Source: Leptotrichia sp. oral taxon 221 (GTDB lineage Bacteria > Fusobacteriota > Fusobacteriia > Fusobacteriales > Leptotrichiaceae). Taken from it: 64,000 nucleotides of DNA. The notes under the pieces are model-generated. The model saw only the letters and a program-made list of their open reading frames with translations, did no database searches and had not been told where the DNA came from. This document shows positions 36,478 to 46,191 of this stretch, in pieces. A program made the position numbers and the translations under genes. Position 1 is the first letter of the stretch, and the number at the start of each line of letters is the position of its first letter. The stretch covers positions 1-64,000 of the forward strand of contig NZ_CP072378.1 in the NCBI RefSeq assembly GCF_018128245.1, read 5' to 3'.

Positions 36478-39400
36478 ATGACTAATGAACTAAGACAATT
36501 AGCGAAAGATTTAAAAGCTTTTGCGAAGAGATGCAAAGAATTTAAGTACACAGAGAGTGCTTTATTTGCATTTCCTTTATTAGGATTGACATCTTTTGCA
36601 GAAACATCGACAACAGATAAAGCAATCCAAAATCAAAGACAAGAAATATCAACTTCTATAGGTGATATGAGACAACAGTTTAGAAAAATTAAAACTGAAA
36701 ATGACAAGTTAATGAAAGACTATAACTTGGAATTGATCCAATTAATGGAACAAGGAGACCATGTAGTTAAATCGCCTTGGAGCTCTTGGCAATATGGAGC
36801 TAACACAATTTTGAATGATTGGCATGGAAGCTATAAAGGTCGTGGAGATAAGAAAGAGAAATATCCTTATGAGGGTGTGTTGAAGAGAGATTCAAATGCT
36901 TACAATAGATATATTTCTAAAGAAAGCTCAATGTATCAATATTTACCACAAAGTAGTGATCCTTCATCAGCTTCTACAAACTCTAGAAAAGGATATGGTT
37001 CATACGGATTGGCAAGTAACAAAACAGTGCCAGAACCACCTGTATCATTTGAAATATCTGCTAGTATTAAACCTAGAATAGTTAGTAAGGGAGCTATTAC
37101 GGTGCCTGAGCCACAACCAATACAACCTACTTTACCGAAGGCAATTGATTTTAAACCAGTGCAACCTAAAATAACTCCTCCACCATTACCAACTATAAAT
37201 ATACCTCCTATAACACCACCTGGTACTGGAAATGGAGATAACCAATGGGTAAATCAATCAGGAGACGTTGCACCACTTGCTCAACAAAATATGACAGGTG
37301 GAACATTAACAGTAAAAGCGAATGGTACATTATTTGATGTAAGCGCTAATAAAGTGAAAATGGTTGGAGTAGTAGGTTCTTCGCATACAGAAGTAGACAA
37401 TGGAGAACAAATTTTTAACTGGACAGGACTTGGGACTCCTGCTTTAGATCAGTTTGCAGTAATGAAACTTGTTGGAGGGCATCCAGTAAAAATAAATGGA
37501 GTTGCTATAAAATATAGTGGTAATTCTTCTGGAGCTTACGATAGATGGTTATTCCATACAGATGGACATAATGATCATGGAGATTCTACATGGGTTTTGG
37601 ATAATGGAACTACTGTTGATATGGATGGAAAAAATTTAGTAATGTACTCAGCGCAATATCACACACACAGTTGGAATCCTAGTTCGTATCCTACAGAAAA
37701 TAATAATATAGGATTTCAAAATAATGGAAAAATAACAACATCAAATACAGGTTCTGATAACTATTTATGGCTAGCATTAGCGGCTACAGGTGGGTTTGAT
37801 AGAGTTATGTGGTTTGATAATAAAGGAAGTATAACTCTTGGAGGAACAGGAGATACAATAGCTGTAATCGGAAGCGAGTATGCAGCTAAGGGTGGTTTTA
37901 GTTTTATGAATTCAGGAGATATATATCTTAATGGAAATCAACAAAAAGGTATAGTCGTAAATGATAAGCTTCTTAATACTTCGAATTCATCAAATCCAGG
38001 TTATCCAGGGGCAGAAATAATATTAACTAAACCAATAAAAATAACAGGAAGTGAATCTGTAGGAGTTGCTTTTAAAACATTTGTTGATTTGAATGGTGGA
38101 ACTGCAATTAGCCCAGGAGCTTCAGCAAGTACAAATGTTAATGAACAAAATTCAAGTGTTTTAGCATTACCTGCTACATCAAGAGAATCTGTTTTAAATG
38201 TTGAATTTGAAGGAGCTACTAATAAAAAGAATACAGGTCTTTATTTTGAACATGCAAATGCTTCAACAAATCCATTTGAAGTTTCAAATTATACTTTGAA
38301 GTCAACAGATGGAAGTGAAAATGCCATGGTTTATATAAAAAATGGATATGTAAACCTTGCAGCACAAAATCAAGCAGGTAAGGATAATGTTATTACTATA
38401 ACAAGTGGAAGTAGTAATACCGGAGTATATACAGAAGCAGCAGGAAAAACTTTAAATACAGGGGCTAAAATTATAGTAGATAATTCAGATGGTTCTACAG
38501 GTATTTATGCTAAATCTTCTGGAACAGTAACAAATACTGGAGAAATAAATGCAAAAGGAAAATCTGTAAAAGCAATAATTACAGATGCTGCAACAATTAA
38601 TAGTTCAGGTAAAGTTACTGTAGATGGAACAGCTTTAAGCGCTACTGATGGTTCTGTAGGATTAGTAGCTATGAATGGAGGAACATTAAATCAAACTGGA
38701 ACAACAGATATAACTGTAGCAGGTAGTGCTTCTTCAGGTGTTTATGCTGAATCAGCAGGTAGTACTTTGAATTTAACAGGTGGAAAAATAACTGCAAAAG
38801 ATGGAGCATTTAATGTTTATTCAAAAGGTGGATTAGTTAAATTAGATGGAACTGATGTAATAACTGGGCAAAAATCGTTAGCATTTTATACAGACAATAC
38901 AGGAAAAATTGAATTTACAAATGGGATGACAAAAGCTGATATAGCAGGTGGAACAGATGCAAATTCAAGAGGAACTGCATTCTTGTATAAAGGTAATGGA
39001 TATACGAATTTTGATTCATCAGCAATTTCAGCTTGGAAAGCAACTAATTTCAATAACAGTATGGGACATTTAACATTGAATATGAATGAGGGTTCTAGAT
39101 TATTTATTGCACAAGATGTACATATGGATCTTAATAATACAAATCCATCTGGTTTAGTGACTTCGCTTGGTGTAGCTAATATAACAGGAAGTCCTAACTA
39201 TAAAACATTCATGCTTTATTTAAGTGAGTTAAGTTTAAATCAAAATGTTGATTTAGATAATCCTACAGATGCATATAATATGCTTGAAATTGCAAACTCA
39301 AGAATTGAAAATAAAAATACAAATACTATGACAGGTACAACAGCAGGGCAAGTTGCAATGGCTCAAGAAAATGATCCAAGTTATAATAGAAATAAAGTTC

Positions 39401-42400
39401 AGTTAGTAAATAAAGGAACTATTTCATTGAGTGGAGCAAATTCTACAGCTATGTATTCAAAATTTGGTGAATTAACAAATGATGGTGGAACAATTACAGT
39501 GGGAGATAGTTCAGCTGCATTATATGGAAAAGATGATTCTAAAATTGAAAATATAAATGGTGGAGTGATTAACTTAGGAAATGGTTCTACAGGAATTTAC
39601 TCTGAAGGAGATACAGCAGCAGGAGTAACTAATGCAAGTGGAAACTTTAAAGGTTCTGTAAGAAATGATGGAACAATTACAAGTACTGGTAAATCTATAG
39701 GTATTACTTATAAAGGGACAGGAGCAGGTAATACAGATGTAAGAGTTACGAATGATACAAATGGTCAAATTAATTTAGCTGGAGAAGGTTCAGTTGGAAT
39801 ATTTGGACTTGGAGCAAGTTATGGAATTGAAAATAAAGGTCAAATTAATTTAGGAAATTCAAGTAGTTTGACTACAAATCCTAATGTTGGAATTTATACA
39901 CCAGTTGAAAGTGTTAAAGTAACAAATGATGGATCTGGAAAAATAACAACAGGAAGTAATTCAGTAGGTATTTACGGATTTGATATTGACAACGCAGGAC
40001 AAATCACAACTGGAGATAACGGAATTGGAATTTATTCTAAGAAATTATCTACAGGACCATCTACTGTAAATCATACAGGAACAATCACAGTAGGAAATAA
40101 TGACGCAACTGGTATTTTCCTTGAAGATGGAGGAACTTTAAACTTTAATAGTGGTGCGATAAATGTAGGAGATAACTCTTATGGAATAGTTGCAATTGGA
40201 AGTAGTCCATTTAACTATACTAATAATGCAGCGGCAACTGTAACATTAGGAAATGGTTCAACATACTTCTATTCAAATAATCCTACAACAAACTTTACGA
40301 ATAATATTGCATTAAATAATCCTTCAGGAGTAGGAATTTATGGAATATCTTCACCAGGTACAATTGTAAATAATGCAAACTTTACTTTAGGTGATCAAAG
40401 TGTTGGTATTTTGAATACAGGAAATGGTGTAGCTACAAATAATGGTACAATAGTTGTTGGAAATTCAGATACAGGAAATAAAAACTATGCTATTGGTATG
40501 GCTACAACTACAGGAAAAGTAGTAAATAGTGGTTCAGGAGTAATTACAGTAGGAGCAGATGGTATTGGATTATTTGCAGATGGAGCAAATGCACAAGCTG
40601 AAAATGCTGGTACAATTAATATCGCTGGAGATCGTGGAATGGGTATTTACTTAGACCATGGAGCTAAAGGGGTAAATAATGGTACAATTACAACAGTAGG
40701 AACTCCAACAGGAGCAGTTGGTGTAGTTGTGCAACATCAAGCTGAATTGACAAATAATGGTACAATTAATATTAATTCTCCAGATGGATATGCAATGTTT
40801 AAAGCAACTGGTGGGGTAATTAAAAACTATGGTACAATTACTTTAGGAAGTGGAGCAACTGAATCATTTGATCCAACTTCAAAACCTACATCAAAAACAG
40901 CAGGTGGAATTTCAATAAATGCACCAACAGGAGCAACACCAGCAACAACTACAGTTACAACAATAGATCATGGAACTATATCAAGTATAGTATCACCTGA
41001 ACATGTGGTAATTAATAATCCACAAGGACCAGCAGGACCTTCACCTACATCATTAGGAATTTATATTGATACATTAGGTTCAACTAATCCAATTTCAGGT
41101 AACTTAGGATTGATAACAGATGAAGCAGACTTGATTATTGGTACAGAAGCTGCTAGAACTACAAATAGTAAAAATATCGTAGTTTCAGGAGCAGTATTAA
41201 ATCCATATATTCAAATGATGGATGCAAATCCAGGAGTAACATGGAACGCTTATGGTGGATCATTAACTTGGATGGCAACACCATTATATTCTAATGGTCA
41301 ATTAGGATCAGTTGTATTAGCTAAATTACCTTATACAGAATTTGCTGGAAATGAAACAACACCAGTAAATAGTAGTGATACTTACAACTTCTTACATGGA
41401 TTAGACGACAGATATGGAGTTGACTGGTACGGAGATAGAGGAGCTAGAGAAAAACAATTATTCAATAAATTGAATGAAATTGGTAAGAACGAAGAAGCAT
41501 TATTCTATCAAGCAACAGACGAAATGATGGGACACCAATACGGAAACGTTCAACAAAGAATCAATGAAACTGGAAGCTTGTTGGATAAAGAATTCAAATA
41601 CTTACGTAATGATTGGAGAAATCCTTCTAAACAAAATAACAAAATTAAAGTATTTGGTATGAGAAATGAATACAACACAGATACAGCTGGTATCATTGAT
41701 TATACAAGTAATGCTTATGGAGTAGCTTATGTTCATGAAGATGAAACTCTTAAATTAGGAAATTCTTCTGGATGGTATGCAGGAGCTGTTAATAACAGAT
41801 TCAAATTCAAAGACATCGGTGGATCTAGAGAAAATCAAACTATGGTAAAAGCAGGAATCTTTAAAACAATGTCACCTTACATGGATCATAATGGTTCATT
41901 GAGATGGACAATTGCAGGAGATGTTTTTGCAGGTAGAAATGAAATGAAACGTAGATTCTTAGTTGTTGATGATGTATTTGGTGCTAAAGGAAGTTATACT
42001 TCTTATGGTGCTGCGTTTAAAACAGATTTAGGATATGATATTAGAATGTCTGAAAGAACTCATTTGAGACCATATGGTGCGTTGAAAATGGAATATGGAA
42101 GATTTAATAGCATAAAAGAAGATGACGGAGAAGTTAGATTGGAAGTAAAAGGAAATGACTACTTCTCAGTTAAACCAGAAGTTGGAATGGAATTCAAATA
42201 CGTTCAACCAATGGCTGTAAGAACGCAATTATCTGTTGGATTGACAGCTGCTTATGAAAACGAATTAGGAAGAGTTGCAGATGGTAAAAATGTAGCAAGA
42301 GTAAGATTTACAGATGCTGACTGGTTCGGAATCAGAGGAGAAAAAGAAGACAGAAGAGGAAGCGGTAAATTTGACTTGAACATCGGTGTAGATAACACTA

Positions 42401-42483
42401 GATTCGGAGTAACAGCAAACTTAGGATATGACACTAAAGGAAGCAACATCAGAGGTGGAATTGGATTTAGAGCGATTTACTAA
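36478..42483 (+). CDS. Giant type Va autotransporter adhesin
   Basis: The 2001-residue protein opens with the N-terminal segment typical of fusobacterial autotransporters (LAKDLKAFAKRCKEFKYTES) and a signal-like stretch ending LTSFAE. A coiled region (about 45-90), a Pro-rich spacer (about 185-255, e.g. PPPLPTINIPPITPP) and a passenger of about 1400 residues follow. The passenger is rich in Gly, Asn and Thr with recurring beta-helix units such as NNGTITVG and GSTGIYS. The last 280 residues (from about 1720) form the beta-barrel, ending GIGFRAIY with a terminal aromatic. It resembles RadD/Fap2-type adhesins; the ligand is unknown. Confidence 0.9.
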   Translation: MTNELRQLAKDLKAFAKRCKEFKYTESALFAFPLLGLTSFAETSTTDKAIQNQRQEISTSIGDMRQQFRKIKTENDKLMKDYNLELIQLMEQGDHVVKSPWSSWQYGANTILNDWHGSYKGRGDKKEKYPYEGVLKRDSNAYNRYISKESSMYQYLPQSSDPSSASTNSRKGYGSYGLASNKTVPEPPVSFEISASIKPRIVSKGAITVPEPQPIQPTLPKAIDFKPVQPKITPPPLPTINIPPITPPGTGNGDNQWVNQSGDVAPLAQQNMTGGTLTVKANGTLFDVSANKVKMVGVVGSSHTEVDNGEQIFNWTGLGTPALDQFAVMKLVGGHPVKINGVAIKYSGNSSGAYDRWLFHTDGHNDHGDSTWVLDNGTTVDMDGKNLVMYSAQYHTHSWNPSSYPTENNNIGFQNNGKITTSNTGSDNYLWLALAATGGFDRVMWFDNKGSITLGGTGDTIAVIGSEYAAKGGFSFMNSGDIYLNGNQQKGIVVNDKLLNTSNSSNPGYPGAEIILTKPIKITGSESVGVAFKTFVDLNGGTAISPGASASTNVNEQNSSVLALPATSRESVLNVEFEGATNKKNTGLYFEHANASTNPFEVSNYTLKSTDGSENAMVYIKNGYVNLAAQNQAGKDNVITITSGSSNTGVYTEAAGKTLNTGAKIIVDNSDGSTGIYAKSSGTVTNTGEINAKGKSVKAIITDAATINSSGKVTVDGTALSATDGSVGLVAMNGGTLNQTGTTDITVAGSASSGVYAESAGSTLNLTGGKITAKDGAFNVYSKGGLVKLDGTDVITGQKSLAFYTDNTGKIEFTNGMTKADIAGGTDANSRGTAFLYKGNGYTNFDSSAISAWKATNFNNSMGHLTLNMNEGSRLFIAQDVHMDLNNTNPSGLVTSLGVANITGSPNYKTFMLYLSELSLNQNVDLDNPTDAYNMLEIANSRIENKNTNTMTGTTAGQVAMAQENDPSYNRNKVQLVNKGTISLSGANSTAMYSKFGELTNDGGTITVGDSSAALYGKDDSKIENINGGVINLGNGSTGIYSEGDTAAGVTNASGNFKGSVRNDGTITSTGKSIGITYKGTGAGNTDVRVTNDTNGQINLAGEGSVGIFGLGASYGIENKGQINLGNSSSLTTNPNVGIYTPVESVKVTNDGSGKITTGSNSVGIYGFDIDNAGQITTGDNGIGIYSKKLSTGPSTVNHTGTITVGNNDATGIFLEDGGTLNFNSGAINVGDNSYGIVAIGSSPFNYTNNAAATVTLGNGSTYFYSNNPTTNFTNNIALNNPSGVGIYGISSPGTIVNNANFTLGDQSVGILNTGNGVATNNGTIVVGNSDTGNKNYAIGMATTTGKVVNSGSGVITVGADGIGLFADGANAQAENAGTINIAGDRGMGIYLDHGAKGVNNGTITTVGTPTGAVGVVVQHQAELTNNGTININSPDGYAMFKATGGVIKNYGTITLGSGATESFDPTSKPTSKTAGGISINAPTGATPATTTVTTIDHGTISSIVSPEHVVINNPQGPAGPSPTSLGIYIDTLGSTNPISGNLGLITDEADLIIGTEAARTTNSKNIVVSGAVLNPYIQMMDANPGVTWNAYGGSLTWMATPLYSNGQLGSVVLAKLPYTEFAGNETTPVNSSDTYNFLHGLDDRYGVDWYGDRGAREKQLFNKLNEIGKNEEALFYQATDEMMGHQYGNVQQRINETGSLLDKEFKYLRNDWRNPSKQNNKIKVFGMRNEYNTDTAGIIDYTSNAYGVAYVHEDETLKLGNSSGWYAGAVNNRFKFKDIGGSRENQTMVKAGIFKTMSPYMDHNGSLRWTIAGDVFAGRNEMKRRFLVVDDVFGAKGSYTSYGAAFKTDLGYDIRMSERTHLRPYGALKMEYGRFNSIKEDDGEVRLEVKGNDYFSVKPEVGMEFKYVQPMAVRTQLSVGLTAAYENELGRVADGKNVARVRFTDADWFGIRGEKEDRRGSGKFDLNIGVDNTRFGVTANLGYDTKGSNIRGGIGFRAIY

Positions 42484-42660: not shown

Positions 42661-44250
42661 ATGAAAAAGCTATTTTTAGCTATGATGTTAATTTTAGGTT
42701 TATTATCTTGTGGAAAATCAGGTATAGGAGGAAAAAGTATATCATTTAATATGGAAGCAGAACCCAACTCTTTAGATCCTCAGCTGACTAGTGATATGGG
42801 AGGATTTATTATTACAGATATGGCTTATGAAGGATTGCTTAGATTAAATGAGAAAAATGAAATTGTACCAGCGAGTGCGGAAAGCTGGAAGGTTTCAGAT
42901 GATGGAAAAGTTTGGACATTGACTCTTAGAAAAAATTTGAAATGGTCGAATGGAGATCCAATAAAAGCTCAAGATTATTATAATGCTATAAAAAGAGGGA
43001 TAGATCCTGAAACATCTTCAGAATATGCATTTATAACTTACTATATTAAAGGGGCTGAGGATTATAATACTGGGAAAATAAAAGATTTTAATCAAGTTGG
43101 AGTAAAAGTTAAGGATGACTATACGATAGAGTTTACTTTATCGAAACCGGCAGCATATTTTGGAAAAACTTTAGTAATGCCGATATATTTTCCTGTAAAT
43201 GAAAAGGTATTAGCTGCAAATAAGGATAAGTATGCTTCAGAAGCTGATAAATCTGTTTATAATGGACCGTATATCATAAAAAAATGGGTTCATGATAATA
43301 AAGTGGTTCTAGAAAAAAATCCAAATTACTGGAATGCTGGAAATATAAAAATCAATCAAATAACAGCTTTAATGGTACCTGATTTTGATACAGCAACAAA
43401 TTTGTTTAAAAATAAAGAGCTTGGAGTCACTAGAGCTTCTATAGAAAAAAGTGCTGAATTTAAAAGAAAACCAGAGCTAAGAAAAGTTTCAAATGGAAGA
43501 CTTTACTATCTAGCATTTAATCAAAAAATTCCTGCCTTAAAAAGTAAAAAAGTTAGGGAAGCATTGGCTTTGGCGATTAACAGAGATGATTTGGTAGAAA
43601 AAGTTTTAAGTGGTGGTGGAGTAAAAACTACTGGAGTTGTAGCTGACCAAATGAGAGGAATTTCTAAAGACTTTAGAGAAGAAAATGGAGATTTGTATGC
43701 GGCATACAAAAATATAGATGTAAAAAAATTGTTTGATGAAGGTTTGAAAGAAGAAGGATTGACACCTGATAAAGTCCATTTGACATTAACTGTAGATGAA
43801 AAAGGAACAGGAAAAAGAGAAGCTGAGTTTTATCAATCTCAATGGAAAGAGAAATTGGGAATAGATGTTCAAGTGGAAGTATTGACTTATAAAGAAAGAT
43901 TATCAAGAGGTAAAGAAGGAAACTTTGAAATTATAAGATCTGTTTGGGGGCCTGATTATGCTGATGCGATGACATATTTGGAAATTTTTGCTTCAAATGG
44001 ATTGAATATTGCAAAAAATAAAAATCCAGAATATGATAAATTGATTGAAGAAGGAAAAGTTATTACTGACAATGGAAAAAGAATGCAGACTTTAGAAAAA
44101 GCTGAAAAAATATTAGCTAATGATTTTGTGTATTCAGGATTGTACTATGAGTTGGCAATGTATTTGGTAGATCCTAAAATAGAAAATGTTACACTTAGAG
44201 CAGTTGGAAGTAAAATTAATTTCAATAAAGCAGATGTTAAAAGTAAATAA
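42661..44250 (+). CDS. Oligopeptide ABC-transporter substrate-binding lipoprotein (OppA type)
   Basis: The 529-residue protein begins with a lipoprotein signal (MKKLFLAMMLILGLLSC), the lipobox being LLSC with Cys17. The SBP_bac_5 domain follows, with EPNSLDPQLTSDMGGFIITD, VPASAESWKVSDDGKVWTLT and LRKNLKWSNGDPIKAQDY, the usual OppA/DppA markers. It should bind peptides for import at the inner membrane. No permease or ATPase gene is adjacent, so it must work with a system encoded elsewhere. AAAGGTGTG is the ribosome binding site. Confidence 0.92.
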   Translation: MKKLFLAMMLILGLLSCGKSGIGGKSISFNMEAEPNSLDPQLTSDMGGFIITDMAYEGLLRLNEKNEIVPASAESWKVSDDGKVWTLTLRKNLKWSNGDPIKAQDYYNAIKRGIDPETSSEYAFITYYIKGAEDYNTGKIKDFNQVGVKVKDDYTIEFTLSKPAAYFGKTLVMPIYFPVNEKVLAANKDKYASEADKSVYNGPYIIKKWVHDNKVVLEKNPNYWNAGNIKINQITALMVPDFDTATNLFKNKELGVTRASIEKSAEFKRKPELRKVSNGRLYYLAFNQKIPALKSKKVREALALAINRDDLVEKVLSGGGVKTTGVVADQMRGISKDFREENGDLYAAYKNIDVKKLFDEGLKEEGLTPDKVHLTLTVDEKGTGKREAEFYQSQWKEKLGIDVQVEVLTYKERLSRGKEGNFEIIRSVWGPDYADAMTYLEIFASNGLNIAKNKNPEYDKLIEEGKVITDNGKRMQTLEKAEKILANDFVYSGLYYELAMYLVDPKIENVTLRAVGSKINFNKADVKSK

Positions 44251-44257
44251 ATTATGA

Positions 44258-44286
44258 TTGTAGTTTTATAGGATTCATGATATAAT
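44258..44286 (+). promoter_or_regulatory. Promoter of antisense RNA 1
   Basis: TTGTAG at 44258-44263, 17-base spacer, TATAAT at 44281-44286. The same 29-base promoter sequence recurs exactly at 44528-44556. Confidence 0.8.
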
Positions 44287-44292
44287 TATTTT

Positions 44293-44355
44293 GTAAATAT
44301 ATTCATAAGATATGACAAAAAAGAGAGCTAACGGCCAAGTAAGCTCTCTTTTTTT
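44293..44355 (+). ncRNA. Putative antitoxin RNA 1 (type I TA)
   Basis: A transcript of about 63 bases is predicted between the promoter at 44258-44286 and the terminator ending in T residues at 44355. Near its 5' end it carries TTCATAAGATATGAC (44302-44316), complementary to the toxin 1 mRNA from the end of its Shine-Dalgarno sequence through the start codon. Its 3' end is also fully antisense to the toxin mRNA terminator. Existence and size are predictions from promoter, terminator and repeat positions. Confidence 0.7.
44317..44355. terminator. Bidirectional terminator shared by toxin 1 and antisense RNA 1
   Basis: AGAGAGCT (44322-44329) pairs with AGCTCTCT (44342-44349). An A run on the left and a T run on the right give a terminator for both strands, so the two transcripts overlap at their 3' ends. 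Confidence 0.88.
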
Positions 44356-44357
44356 AG

Positions 44358-44438
44358 TTATTTTGAGAATTCATTGATTAAGATAATAATGATTTGAAGC
44401 ATTATTGTTACAATGATTCTTATCCATAACACTTTCAT
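44358..44438 (-). CDS. 26-residue hydrophobic peptide, candidate type I toxin 1
   Basis: The peptide begins MKVLWIRIIVTIMLQ, continues with a run of isoleucines and leucine, and ends INEFSK: one membrane span with a basic N-terminal side and a polar C-terminus. AAAGGAGGT (44447-44454) lies 8 bases before the ATG, an excellent site. It has its own promoter (44471-44499), a leader of about 26 bases and a shared terminator. It is 20/26 identical to the peptide at 44624-44704. I know no named family for it; pore-type membrane toxicity is inferred from form and arrangement. Confidence 0.75.
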   Translation of the reverse strand: MKVLWIRIIVTIMLQIIIILINEFSK

Positions 44439-44470
44439 AAGATATGACCTCCTTTTCAAGGATTGAAAAA

Positions 44471-44499
44471 ATTATATCATTTTTAAAGAGAAGGTGCAA
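44471..44499 (-). promoter_or_regulatory. Promoter of toxin gene 1
   Basis: On the minus strand TTGCAC (44499-44494), 17-base spacer, TATAAT (44476-44471), placing the start of transcription near 44464. Confidence 0.75.
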
Positions 44500-44527
44500 T
44501 ATCATGTAAAAAATGTAATTAAAAAGA

Positions 44528-44556
44528 TTGTAGTTTTATAGGATTCATGATATAAT
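44528..44556 (+). promoter_or_regulatory. Promoter of antisense RNA 2
   Basis: TTGTAG at 44528-44533, 17-base spacer, TATAAT at 44551-44556; identical, including the spacer, to the promoter at 44258-44286. Confidence 0.8.
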
Positions 44557-44562
44557 ATATCA

Positions 44563-44621
44563 TATAAAATCATGATGTATGACAAAAAGAGAGCTAACCG
44601 CCAAGTAAGCTCTCTTTTTTT
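44563..44621 (+). ncRNA. Putative antitoxin RNA 2 (type I TA)
   Basis: A transcript of about 59 bases is predicted from the promoter at 44528-44556 to the T run ending at 44621. It carries TCATGATGTATGAC (44570-44583), complementary to the toxin 2 mRNA over its SD-start spacer and start codon. Relative to RNA 1 this element differs at three positions, each matched by the same change in its own toxin gene. Confidence 0.7.
44584..44621. terminator. Bidirectional terminator shared by toxin 2 and antisense RNA 2
   Basis: AGAGAGCT (44588-44595) pairs with AGCTCTCT (44608-44615), flanked by an A run and a T run. The loop AACCGCCAAGTA differs from that of cassette 1 at two places. Confidence 0.88.
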
Positions 44622-44623
44622 AG

Positions 44624-44704
44624 TTATTTCCAAAATTCGCTAATTAAAATAATAATGATTTGAAGCATTATTTTAATGATAATTTTTATCCATAACTCTT
44701 TCAT
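44624..44704 (-). CDS. 26-residue hydrophobic peptide, candidate type I toxin 2
   Basis: The peptide begins MKELWIKIIIKIMLQ and ends ISEFWK, 20/26 identical to toxin 1, with all membrane-core residues kept and changes mainly at the ends. AAAGGAGGT (44713-44720) precedes the start with the same spacing. The cassette has the same parts in the same order as the first and arose by tandem duplication of about 270 bases. Confidence 0.75.
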   Translation of the reverse strand: MKELWIKIIIKIMLQIIIILISEFWK

Positions 44705-44737
44705 GATGTATGACCTCCTTTCTTCAAGGATGTTAAG

Positions 44738-44766
44738 ATTATATCACATCATTAAGAAATATACAA
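44738..44766 (-). promoter_or_regulatory. Promoter of toxin gene 2
   Basis: On the minus strand TTGTAT (44766-44761), 17-base spacer, TATAAT (44743-44738). The -10 box and spacing match cassette 1; the -35 differs. Confidence 0.65.
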
Positions 44767-44988: not shown

Positions 44989-46191
44989 ATGGCTAAAAAA
45001 ACATTAAAAGATTTAGATGTAAAAGGTAAAAAAGTTTTAGTAAGAGTTGACTTTAATGTACCTATAAAAGACGGAGTTGTTGGGAATGATAACAGAATTA
45101 CTGCTGCATTGCCTACATTAAACTATATTTTGGACAACGGTGGAGCAGTTATTGCTTTTTCTCACTTAGGAAAAGTTAAAACTGAAGAAGATAAAGTTTC
45201 AAAAACATTGGCACCAGTTGCTAAAGTATTAGCTGAAAAATTAGGAAAACCAGTTAAATTTGTACCTGTAACAAGAGGACCAGAATTGGAAAAAGCAGTT
45301 GCTGAATTGAAACCAGGAGAAATTTTAATGTTTGAAAACACTAGATTTGAAGATTTAGATGGTAAAAAAGAATCTAAAAATGATCCTGAATTAGGAAAAT
45401 ATTGGGCTTCTTTAGGAGATGTATTCGTAAATGATGCATTCGGAACTGCTCATAGAGCACACGCTTCAAATGTAGGAATTGCTTCAAATATCAAAGAATC
45501 AGCAGTTGGATTCTTAATTGAAAAAGAAATTAAATTCATCGGAGGAGCTGTTGATAATCCTGAAAGACCATTAGTAGCTATTTTAGGAGGAGCAAAAGTT
45601 TCTGATAAAATTGGAGTTATTGATAACTTATTAGAAAAAGCTGATAAAGTAATTATCGGTGGAGGAATGATGTTTACTTTCTTAAAAGCATTAGGAAAAA
45701 ATACAGGTTCTTCATTATTAGAAGCTGATAAAGTAGATTTAGCTAAATCATTAATCGAAAAAGCAAAAACAAAAGGTGTTGAATTATTGTTACCAGTAGA
45801 TGCTGTTGTAGCTCAAGAATTCAGTAACGATGTACCATTTAAAACAGTTTCAGTGGATGACATTGAAGATGGATGGATGGGATTAGATATAGGTGAAAAA
45901 TCTGTAGAATTATTCAAAAAAGCTTTAGAAGGTGCTAAAACTGTAGTATGGAACGGACCTATGGGAGTATTCGAAATGTCTAACTATGCTAACGGAACAA
46001 TTGGTGTTTGTAAAGCAATCGCTGAATTGAAAGATGCTAAAACAATTATCGGTGGAGGAGACTCTGCAGCAGCAGCAATTCAATTAGGATTTGCTGATAA
46101 ATTCTCTCACATTTCAACTGGTGGAGGAGCTTCAATGGAATACTTAGAAGGTAAAGTATTACCAGGTGTAGCAGCTATTTCAGAAAAATAG
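44989..46191 (+). CDS. pgk: Phosphoglycerate kinase
   Basis: The 400-residue two-domain glycolytic kinase has [11 protein letters not shown] with NRITAALPT (substrate loop), [27 protein letters not shown] and the nucleotide loops [19 protein letters not shown] and GGGDSAAA with [14 protein letters not shown] at the end. It transfers phosphate from 1,3-bisphosphoglycerate to ADP. gapA and eno lie elsewhere in this window, so the glycolytic genes are scattered, each monocistronic. AGGAGG precedes the start. Confidence 0.98.

Follow-up and report, generated by a model that had tools for sequence, protein, structure and literature searches.

Tandem cassettes in a Leptotrichia chromosome predicted to be par-like type I toxin–antitoxin modules with a peptide that the tests applied do not assign to the Fst family

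Between the gene of a solute-binding protein (42661-44250, PF00496) and pgk (44989-46191, PF00162), the window, that is, the 64,000-nucleotide stretch of Leptotrichia sp. oral taxon 221 DNA analyzed here, contains a region (44258-44766) in which two small hydrophobic ORFs lie in tandem, each facing a convergent promoter. The question is whether these cassettes are type I toxin–antitoxin modules and how they relate to the best comparable system, the par locus of Enterococcus faecalis pAD1 (Fst; RNA I/RNA II). For the latter, the available parts of PMC7472228 describe convergent promoters that share a bidirectional terminator, direct repeats read in opposite directions, a 5′ stem-loop (5′-SL) that hides the Shine–Dalgarno (SD) sequence, and an antitoxin RNA that blocks the initiation of toxin translation.

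A sequence-only reading had assigned to each cassette a minus-strand ORF for a hydrophobic peptide of 26 residues with a strong SD box and its own promoter, a plus-strand promoter on the opposite side, a shared bidirectional terminator, and a direct repeat by which the plus-strand RNA would carry the complement of the toxin mRNA from the end of the SD box to the start codon. All of these elements were recovered as sequence features (Table 1). Both toxin ORFs are preceded by a strong SD box (GGAGG in cassette 1) and relatives keep the peptide, while the repeat copies are identical over 14–15 nt, the proximal copy running from the end of the SD box through the start codon and one or two bases further. 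All four promoters have an exact TATAAT box and a weak −35 box (3/6 consensus bases each). A consensus scan of the window listed none of these promoters and no terminator, and the calls were based on reading, conservation in relatives, and RNA folding, the terminators being recognized by their hairpins and T runs on both strands. The leader-pattern search showed that the toxin TATAAT and the leader pattern are conserved in relatives. The predicted toxin mRNA would begin 6-7 nt after the TATAAT box and open with an SD-complementary sequence.

Table 1. Positions of the cassette features in the window
Feature	Position	Strand	Remark
Cassette 1 antitoxin promoter, TTGTAG-17-TATAAT	44258-44263 + 44281-44286	+	TATAAT kept by relatives
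Predicted cassette 1 antitoxin RNA	44293-44355	+	about 63 nt; predicted from promoter and terminator
Cassette 1 distal repeat	44302-44316	+	inside the predicted antitoxin RNA, beyond the terminator
Cassette 1 bidirectional terminator	about 44317-44353	both	hairpin, T runs on both strands
Predicted cassette 1 toxin mRNA	44317-44464	-	148 nt
Cassette 1 toxin ORF	44438-44358	-	26 codons, MKVLWIRIIVTIMLQIIIILINEFSK; relatives keep the ORF
Cassette 1 proximal repeat	44434-44448	-	begins at the SD end and covers the start codon plus 1-2 bases; 15/15 identical with the distal copy
Cassette 1 SD and predicted anti-SD hairpin	44449-44464	-	at the mRNA 5′ end
Cassette 1 toxin promoter, TTGCAC-17-TATAAT	44471-44499, TATAAT 44476-44471	-	read by eye
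Cassette 2 antitoxin promoter, TTGTAG-17-TATAAT	44528-44533 + 44551-44556	+	read by eye
Predicted cassette 2 antitoxin RNA	44563-44621	+	about 60 nt
Cassette 2 distal repeat	44570-44583	+	14/14 identical with the proximal copy
Cassette 2 bidirectional terminator	about 44584-44620	both	hairpin, T runs on both strands
Cassette 2 toxin ORF	44704-44624	-	26 codons, MKELWIKIIIKIMLQIIIILISEFWK
Cassette 2 proximal repeat	44701-44714	-	14/14 identical with the distal copy
Cassette 2 SD and predicted anti-SD hairpin	44715-44732	-	
Cassette 2 toxin promoter, TTGTAT-17-TATAAT	44738-44766, TATAAT 44743-44738	-	read by eye

In an alignment covering query positions 6-229 (query length, 250 bases) the two cassettes share 84% identity, and they comprise two duplicated segments (D1, 138 nt, 87%; D2, 53 nt, 81%). 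Judged by these alignments, the pair is the product of a tandem duplication. A scan of the window for an SD box followed by a small ORF and a downstream repeat of at least 11 nt spanning the start codon gave three matches, two of which were the cassettes and the third lay antisense to a large ORF (36478-42483); the same scan on 50 Markov shuffles of the window gave six matches in total. The large ORF encodes 2001 aa and appears by eye autotransporter-like with many repeats.

RNA folding, compared with shuffled sequences, gave z values of -4.1 and -3.5 for the whole toxin mRNAs of cassettes 1 and 2, respectively, and -6.0 and -5.3 for the predicted antitoxin RNAs. After removal of the terminator the structure of the toxin mRNAs did not exceed that of the shuffles (z -0.8 and -0.4), and besides the SD hairpin and the terminator no above-chance structure was detected in the two window mRNAs. 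The pairing probability of the SD box was 0.75 in cassette 1, a value attained by 13/300 shuffles, and 0.77 in cassette 2 (5/300). Across the leaders folded, SD pairing exceeded the shuffle mean in 14/14 and was significant at the 5% level (≤14/300 shuffles) in nine of them, the five that missed this level being G010p, G011, G017a, G017c, and G012B. A conserved RNA structure in the coding region was rejected, as it was not above chance and the predicted helices were inseparable from the coding sequence. The pairing that RNAalifold chose for the alignment of covariance model R2 was taken as an alignment artefact, Rfam matches below the gathering threshold were taken as noise, and small plus-strand ORFs running across the terminator were rejected, since no SD box was seen.

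The repeats provide evidence that is independent of the layout. Cassettes 1 and 2 differ at three positions of the 14-nt repeat, and each change is present in both copies of its own cassette. Nine cassette types with different repeats were then compared by scoring every leader against every downstream region, and the own distal repeat was the best match in 9/9 types; the true assignment was the unique optimum among 362,880 permutations both by sequence match and by predicted duplex energy. The distal repeat of cassette 1 reached -24.0 kcal/mol with its own mRNA leader (best non-cognate pairing, -17.1), and that of cassette 2 reached -23.9 kcal/mol (best non-cognate, -12.8). Specificity has its limits in cross-pairing, as in the mRNA of cassette 1 with antitoxin 2 (-17.1 kcal/mol) or the G007 mRNA with the G016 antitoxin (-24.0 kcal/mol). 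The 18 distinct repeat pairs hold 31 mismatches, 18 of which yield G.U pairs between mRNA and antitoxin. Among the 20 transitions, 18 have the polarity that allows G.U pairing and two the opposite one; these rows are not independent, and merging by hand the changes common to close relatives gave 13 versus 2. The non-pairing mismatches (13/31) include three of the four in G011, three in G017b, and two in G017c. The co-evolution of the repeats and the G.U polarity thus support, at the level of sequence, the antisense role that had been ascribed to the repeat.

The peptides consist of one hydrophobic stretch with charged ends and have 26-27 codons throughout; the best 15-residue hydropathy was 2.67-3.21 in 12 peptides. 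In codons 6-26, which lie outside the repeat, the pN/pS ratio was 0.14 between cassettes 1 and 2 and 0.32 when pooled across 12 cassettes, and the weakest constraint among the seven pairs listed was found for cassette 2 against the G000 plasmid copy and G020 (0.66 and 0.67). By this measure the peptide is under purifying selection. Its conservation in related genomes had been named beforehand as a test, and it was found here in multiple relatives. Searches of Pfam, NCBIfam, PHROGs, PADLOC, and PDB gave no convincing match of the peptide; the top-scoring entries were the NCBIfam model Prli42 (E 0.02), phrog_3045 (E 0.22), and a viral family of Pfam (E 7.2).

The search of relatives for the peptide and the repeat pair, which had been proposed as a check, covered 98 Fusobacteriota genomes, 33 from the family of the window (taken as Leptotrichiaceae) and 65 others, and was carried out with peptide profiles, the leader pattern, and covariance models. 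At least one cassette was present in 13/33 family genomes, and the 65 other Fusobacteriota yielded no confirmed one; strict filters were applied when model R1 searched the phylum, and model R2 searched the family only, so distant forms may be missed. Type A was found at 19 places in 12 genomes, 14 with intact and five with broken or truncated ORFs, and the distinct intact copies number 16 when the L. trevisanii and the second L. wadei plasmid are added to the 14 genomic ones. The window genome itself carries a third intact copy on the 38-kb contig C2, beside an ORF that appears RelB-like by eye, and a decayed chromosomal copy with no proper start region. In a third genus (G020) a weak profile match (E 0.019) was confirmed as a cassette by reading. 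Model R1, built from the toxin mRNA alone, led to two cassettes in a fourth genus (G017). Even with the threshold at E 3, the type A profile reports no peptide at either place, and both of these new matches have a similar repeat downstream as well as an antitoxin TATAAT. Model R2 added a third G017 cassette and the related type B at six places in genus g5. The three G017 cassettes (L109, L110, and L160) encode divergent peptides of 26-27 aa with the apparent starts TTG, ATG, and GTG. Next to the 13 other copies used for comparison, no match was found to the window genes flanking the cassettes (42661-44250 and pgk), indicating that the site is not shared.

Several candidates did not withstand inspection. 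The 14 low-scoring peptide matches (nine in the 65 other Fusobacteriota and five in the family) were examined for an ORF behind an SD box, for a repeat in two copies, and for the −10 box of an antitoxin; the cassette layout was present in 0/14 cases. The G041 match of R1 and the G057 match of the A3 profile were rejected on reading, two leader-pattern matches outside the family look coding, and for one in G011 no such ORF exists. Among the remaining weak matches (E > 0.01), those at G010 526k, G023, G020 279k, and G016 473k were read and are not counted. Profile scans of the genome_contigs and viral_contigs collections confirmed nothing, a 26-residue profile being hardly able to reach significance there, and the leader DNA pattern was absent from viral_contigs.

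A DNA search placed the cassette on five Leptotrichia plasmid records, from L. shahii, L. trevisanii, L. wadei (twice), and L. hofstadii; matching coordinates suggest that three of them are the C2 contigs of G010, G005, and G015, each of which was therefore counted a single time. The agreement of coordinates between C2 of G010 and of G005 (genus g5) and the L. shahii and L. hofstadii records is also the ground for taking the family as Leptotrichiaceae. One of the two L. wadei copies has a broken toxin ORF. The PLSDB tables, which describe themselves as incomplete, list no gene under the cassette in any of the five records. Type II toxin–antitoxin genes lie near the cassette in 5/5 records; in L075-L079 they are of the PemK/MazF, RelE/ParE, RelB, and Txe/YoeB kinds, varying by record. 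A tblastn search of plasmids and phages with the peptide returned nothing, a 26-residue query being hardly able to reach significance, and the phage DNA matches were set aside, as they covered at most 11% of the query.

The antitoxin TATAAT box was present in 16/16 distinct intact type A copies and also in the five distinct copies whose toxin ORF is broken or truncated, which fits a costly toxin and is not a proof of it. Three of the five broken copies (two in G015 and one in G005) keep a matched repeat pair; in the broken G014 copy the leader belongs to one type and the distal repeat to another, and the proximal repeat has been lost from the decayed copy in the window genome. The G014 locus (L066 on contig C4), where the type A leader and the C-terminal half lie about 470 bases apart together with two repeat types, looks as if it had been rearranged or recombined. 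Type B peptides are of the kind MRVKETIKILLLILLEVLRYLIEKFL (L142, L134, L125, and L135 in G012, G008, G014, and G006, respectively), and the type B repeat covers the 5′ end of the mRNA, that is, the anti-SD hairpin, instead of the start codon. The type B copies in G007 and G005 are visibly damaged and both are without an exact antitoxin TATAAT.

How far the peptide stands from Fst bears on whether the cassettes form a separate toxin family or belong, though strongly diverged, to the Fst/Ldr superfamily proper (PF13955). The regulatory layout is identical in kind, the peptides are likewise hydrophobic and span the membrane once, and a tryptophan stands near the C-terminus, after the hydrophobic stretch, in 9/11 type A peptides, recalling a signature of Fst/Ldr toxins described in the accessible text of PMC7472228. 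On the other hand, only lysine follows this tryptophan and the highly charged C-terminal tail is lacking, the residue is missing from the distant peptides of G017 and type B, and the P/D/S/TxxxG(C) motif is absent from the membrane segment by eye in alignment A3. PF13955 matched 0/11 peptides; it passed its cut-off in 0/98 Fusobacteriota genomes, yet also in 0/14 control genomes, and its weak matches in 3/98 genomes never fell at a cassette. Membership in Fst/Ldr therefore seems unlikely to us, and the earlier statement that the peptides are without clear Fst similarity held.

The same observations can be weighed against two explanations that dispense with a toxin. If the peptide were a small membrane protein with a signalling or envelope-stress role, for example, and the antisense RNA merely set its dose, then its conservation would be expected, and the Prli42 membrane mini-protein model is indeed matched weakly by 3/11 members (best E 0.02; one score, 9.5 bits, lay below the cut-off of 27.5). 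The carriage on plasmids near other addiction modules, the patchy presence in the family, the broken ORFs that keep their antitoxin box, and a tandem duplication with diverged repeats, together a toxin–antitoxin pattern, make this explanation improbable. Remnants of a transposon, with repeats and terminator as debris and ORFs arising by chance, would account for the tandem duplication and for a site not shared among the copies; with purifying selection, the constant length of 26-27 codons, the conserved −10 boxes, and the co-evolution and G.U polarity of the repeats on the other side, we give this view hardly any credence.

Considering the anatomy, the conservation, and the repeat co-evolution, all read from sequence, we regard each cassette as very probably a type I toxin–antitoxin module working like pAD1 par, and the proposal of such pairs in a fusobacterial chromosome thus gained support as a prediction. 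We infer transcription, a block of translation, toxicity, a difference in RNA stability, and post-segregational killing by the plasmid copies. A minus-strand mRNA of about 148 nt would encode a 26-residue membrane peptide, presumably toxic, and its 5′ hairpin would hide the SD box. The convergent plus-strand RNA of about 60 nt would end at the shared terminator and carry the complement of the terminator hairpin and, via the direct repeat, of the stretch from the SD box to the start codon, so that pairing with its own mRNA at both places would block the initiation of translation. Should the antitoxin RNA disappear faster than the mRNA, upon plasmid loss or, for chromosomal copies, under stress, translation of the peptide would follow, with harm to the membrane. 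After duplication, the repeats of the tandem pair would have diverged until each antitoxin preferred its own mRNA. The plasmid copies suggest post-segregational killing.

With pAD1 par, as far as the available text describes it, the Leptotrichia cassettes have in common the convergent promoters, the shared terminator, the oppositely transcribed direct repeats, an SD-hiding 5′ stem-loop (here predicted), a short antitoxin RNA, a small hydrophobic peptide, and the occurrence of plasmid and chromosomal copies. They differ in the peptide (26-27 aa with neither the Fst motif nor a Pfam match), in having one contiguous repeat per side instead of the separate DRa and DRb, which were absent by sequence comparison, in the length of the predicted mRNA (about 148 nt vs. 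about 230 in the same source), and in the host, which belongs to the Fusobacteriota. What appears to be new is par-like regulation combined with a toxin that the tests applied do not assign to the Fst family. A wider reading, to which we give somewhat less than even credence, is that in Leptotrichiaceae a par-type RNA chassis carries an Fst-unrelated toxin family, by independent origin or toxin replacement, which radiated into largely orthogonal cassettes, including type B, whose repeat moved from the start codon to the 5′ end of the mRNA.

According to passages of PMC12390103, type I systems are listed for Proteobacteria, Firmicutes, and Tenericutes, with Cyanobacteria added in 2025 and no entry for Fusobacteriota, and search bias is suspected as the reason why so few phyla are known. 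The cyanobacterial msoT1/msoA1 pair of that study resembles the present cassettes in being of type I and coming from beyond the classical phyla; its phylum is a different one, and the likeness lies in its description there. The open-licence literature yielded no type I system in Fusobacteriota, and a prior prediction elsewhere is possible; the passages available on toxin–antitoxin systems of Fusobacteria concern type III. The family would extend type I systems to the Fusobacteriota, its co-diverged repeat pairs offer a natural series for the evolution of antisense specificity after duplication, and a plasmid-addiction device, its gene unlisted in the PLSDB tables, is suggested on Leptotrichia plasmids.

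Two R2 matches, in G001 (E 0.0009) and G018 (E 0.003), combine a small membrane ORF with a terminator but show no clear repeat pair, and are not counted as cassettes. These loci (L126 and L127), together with L140 in G016, show small hydrophobic ORFs behind a strong SD box and an anti-SD-like stretch, and may possibly be further small-protein or type I loci.
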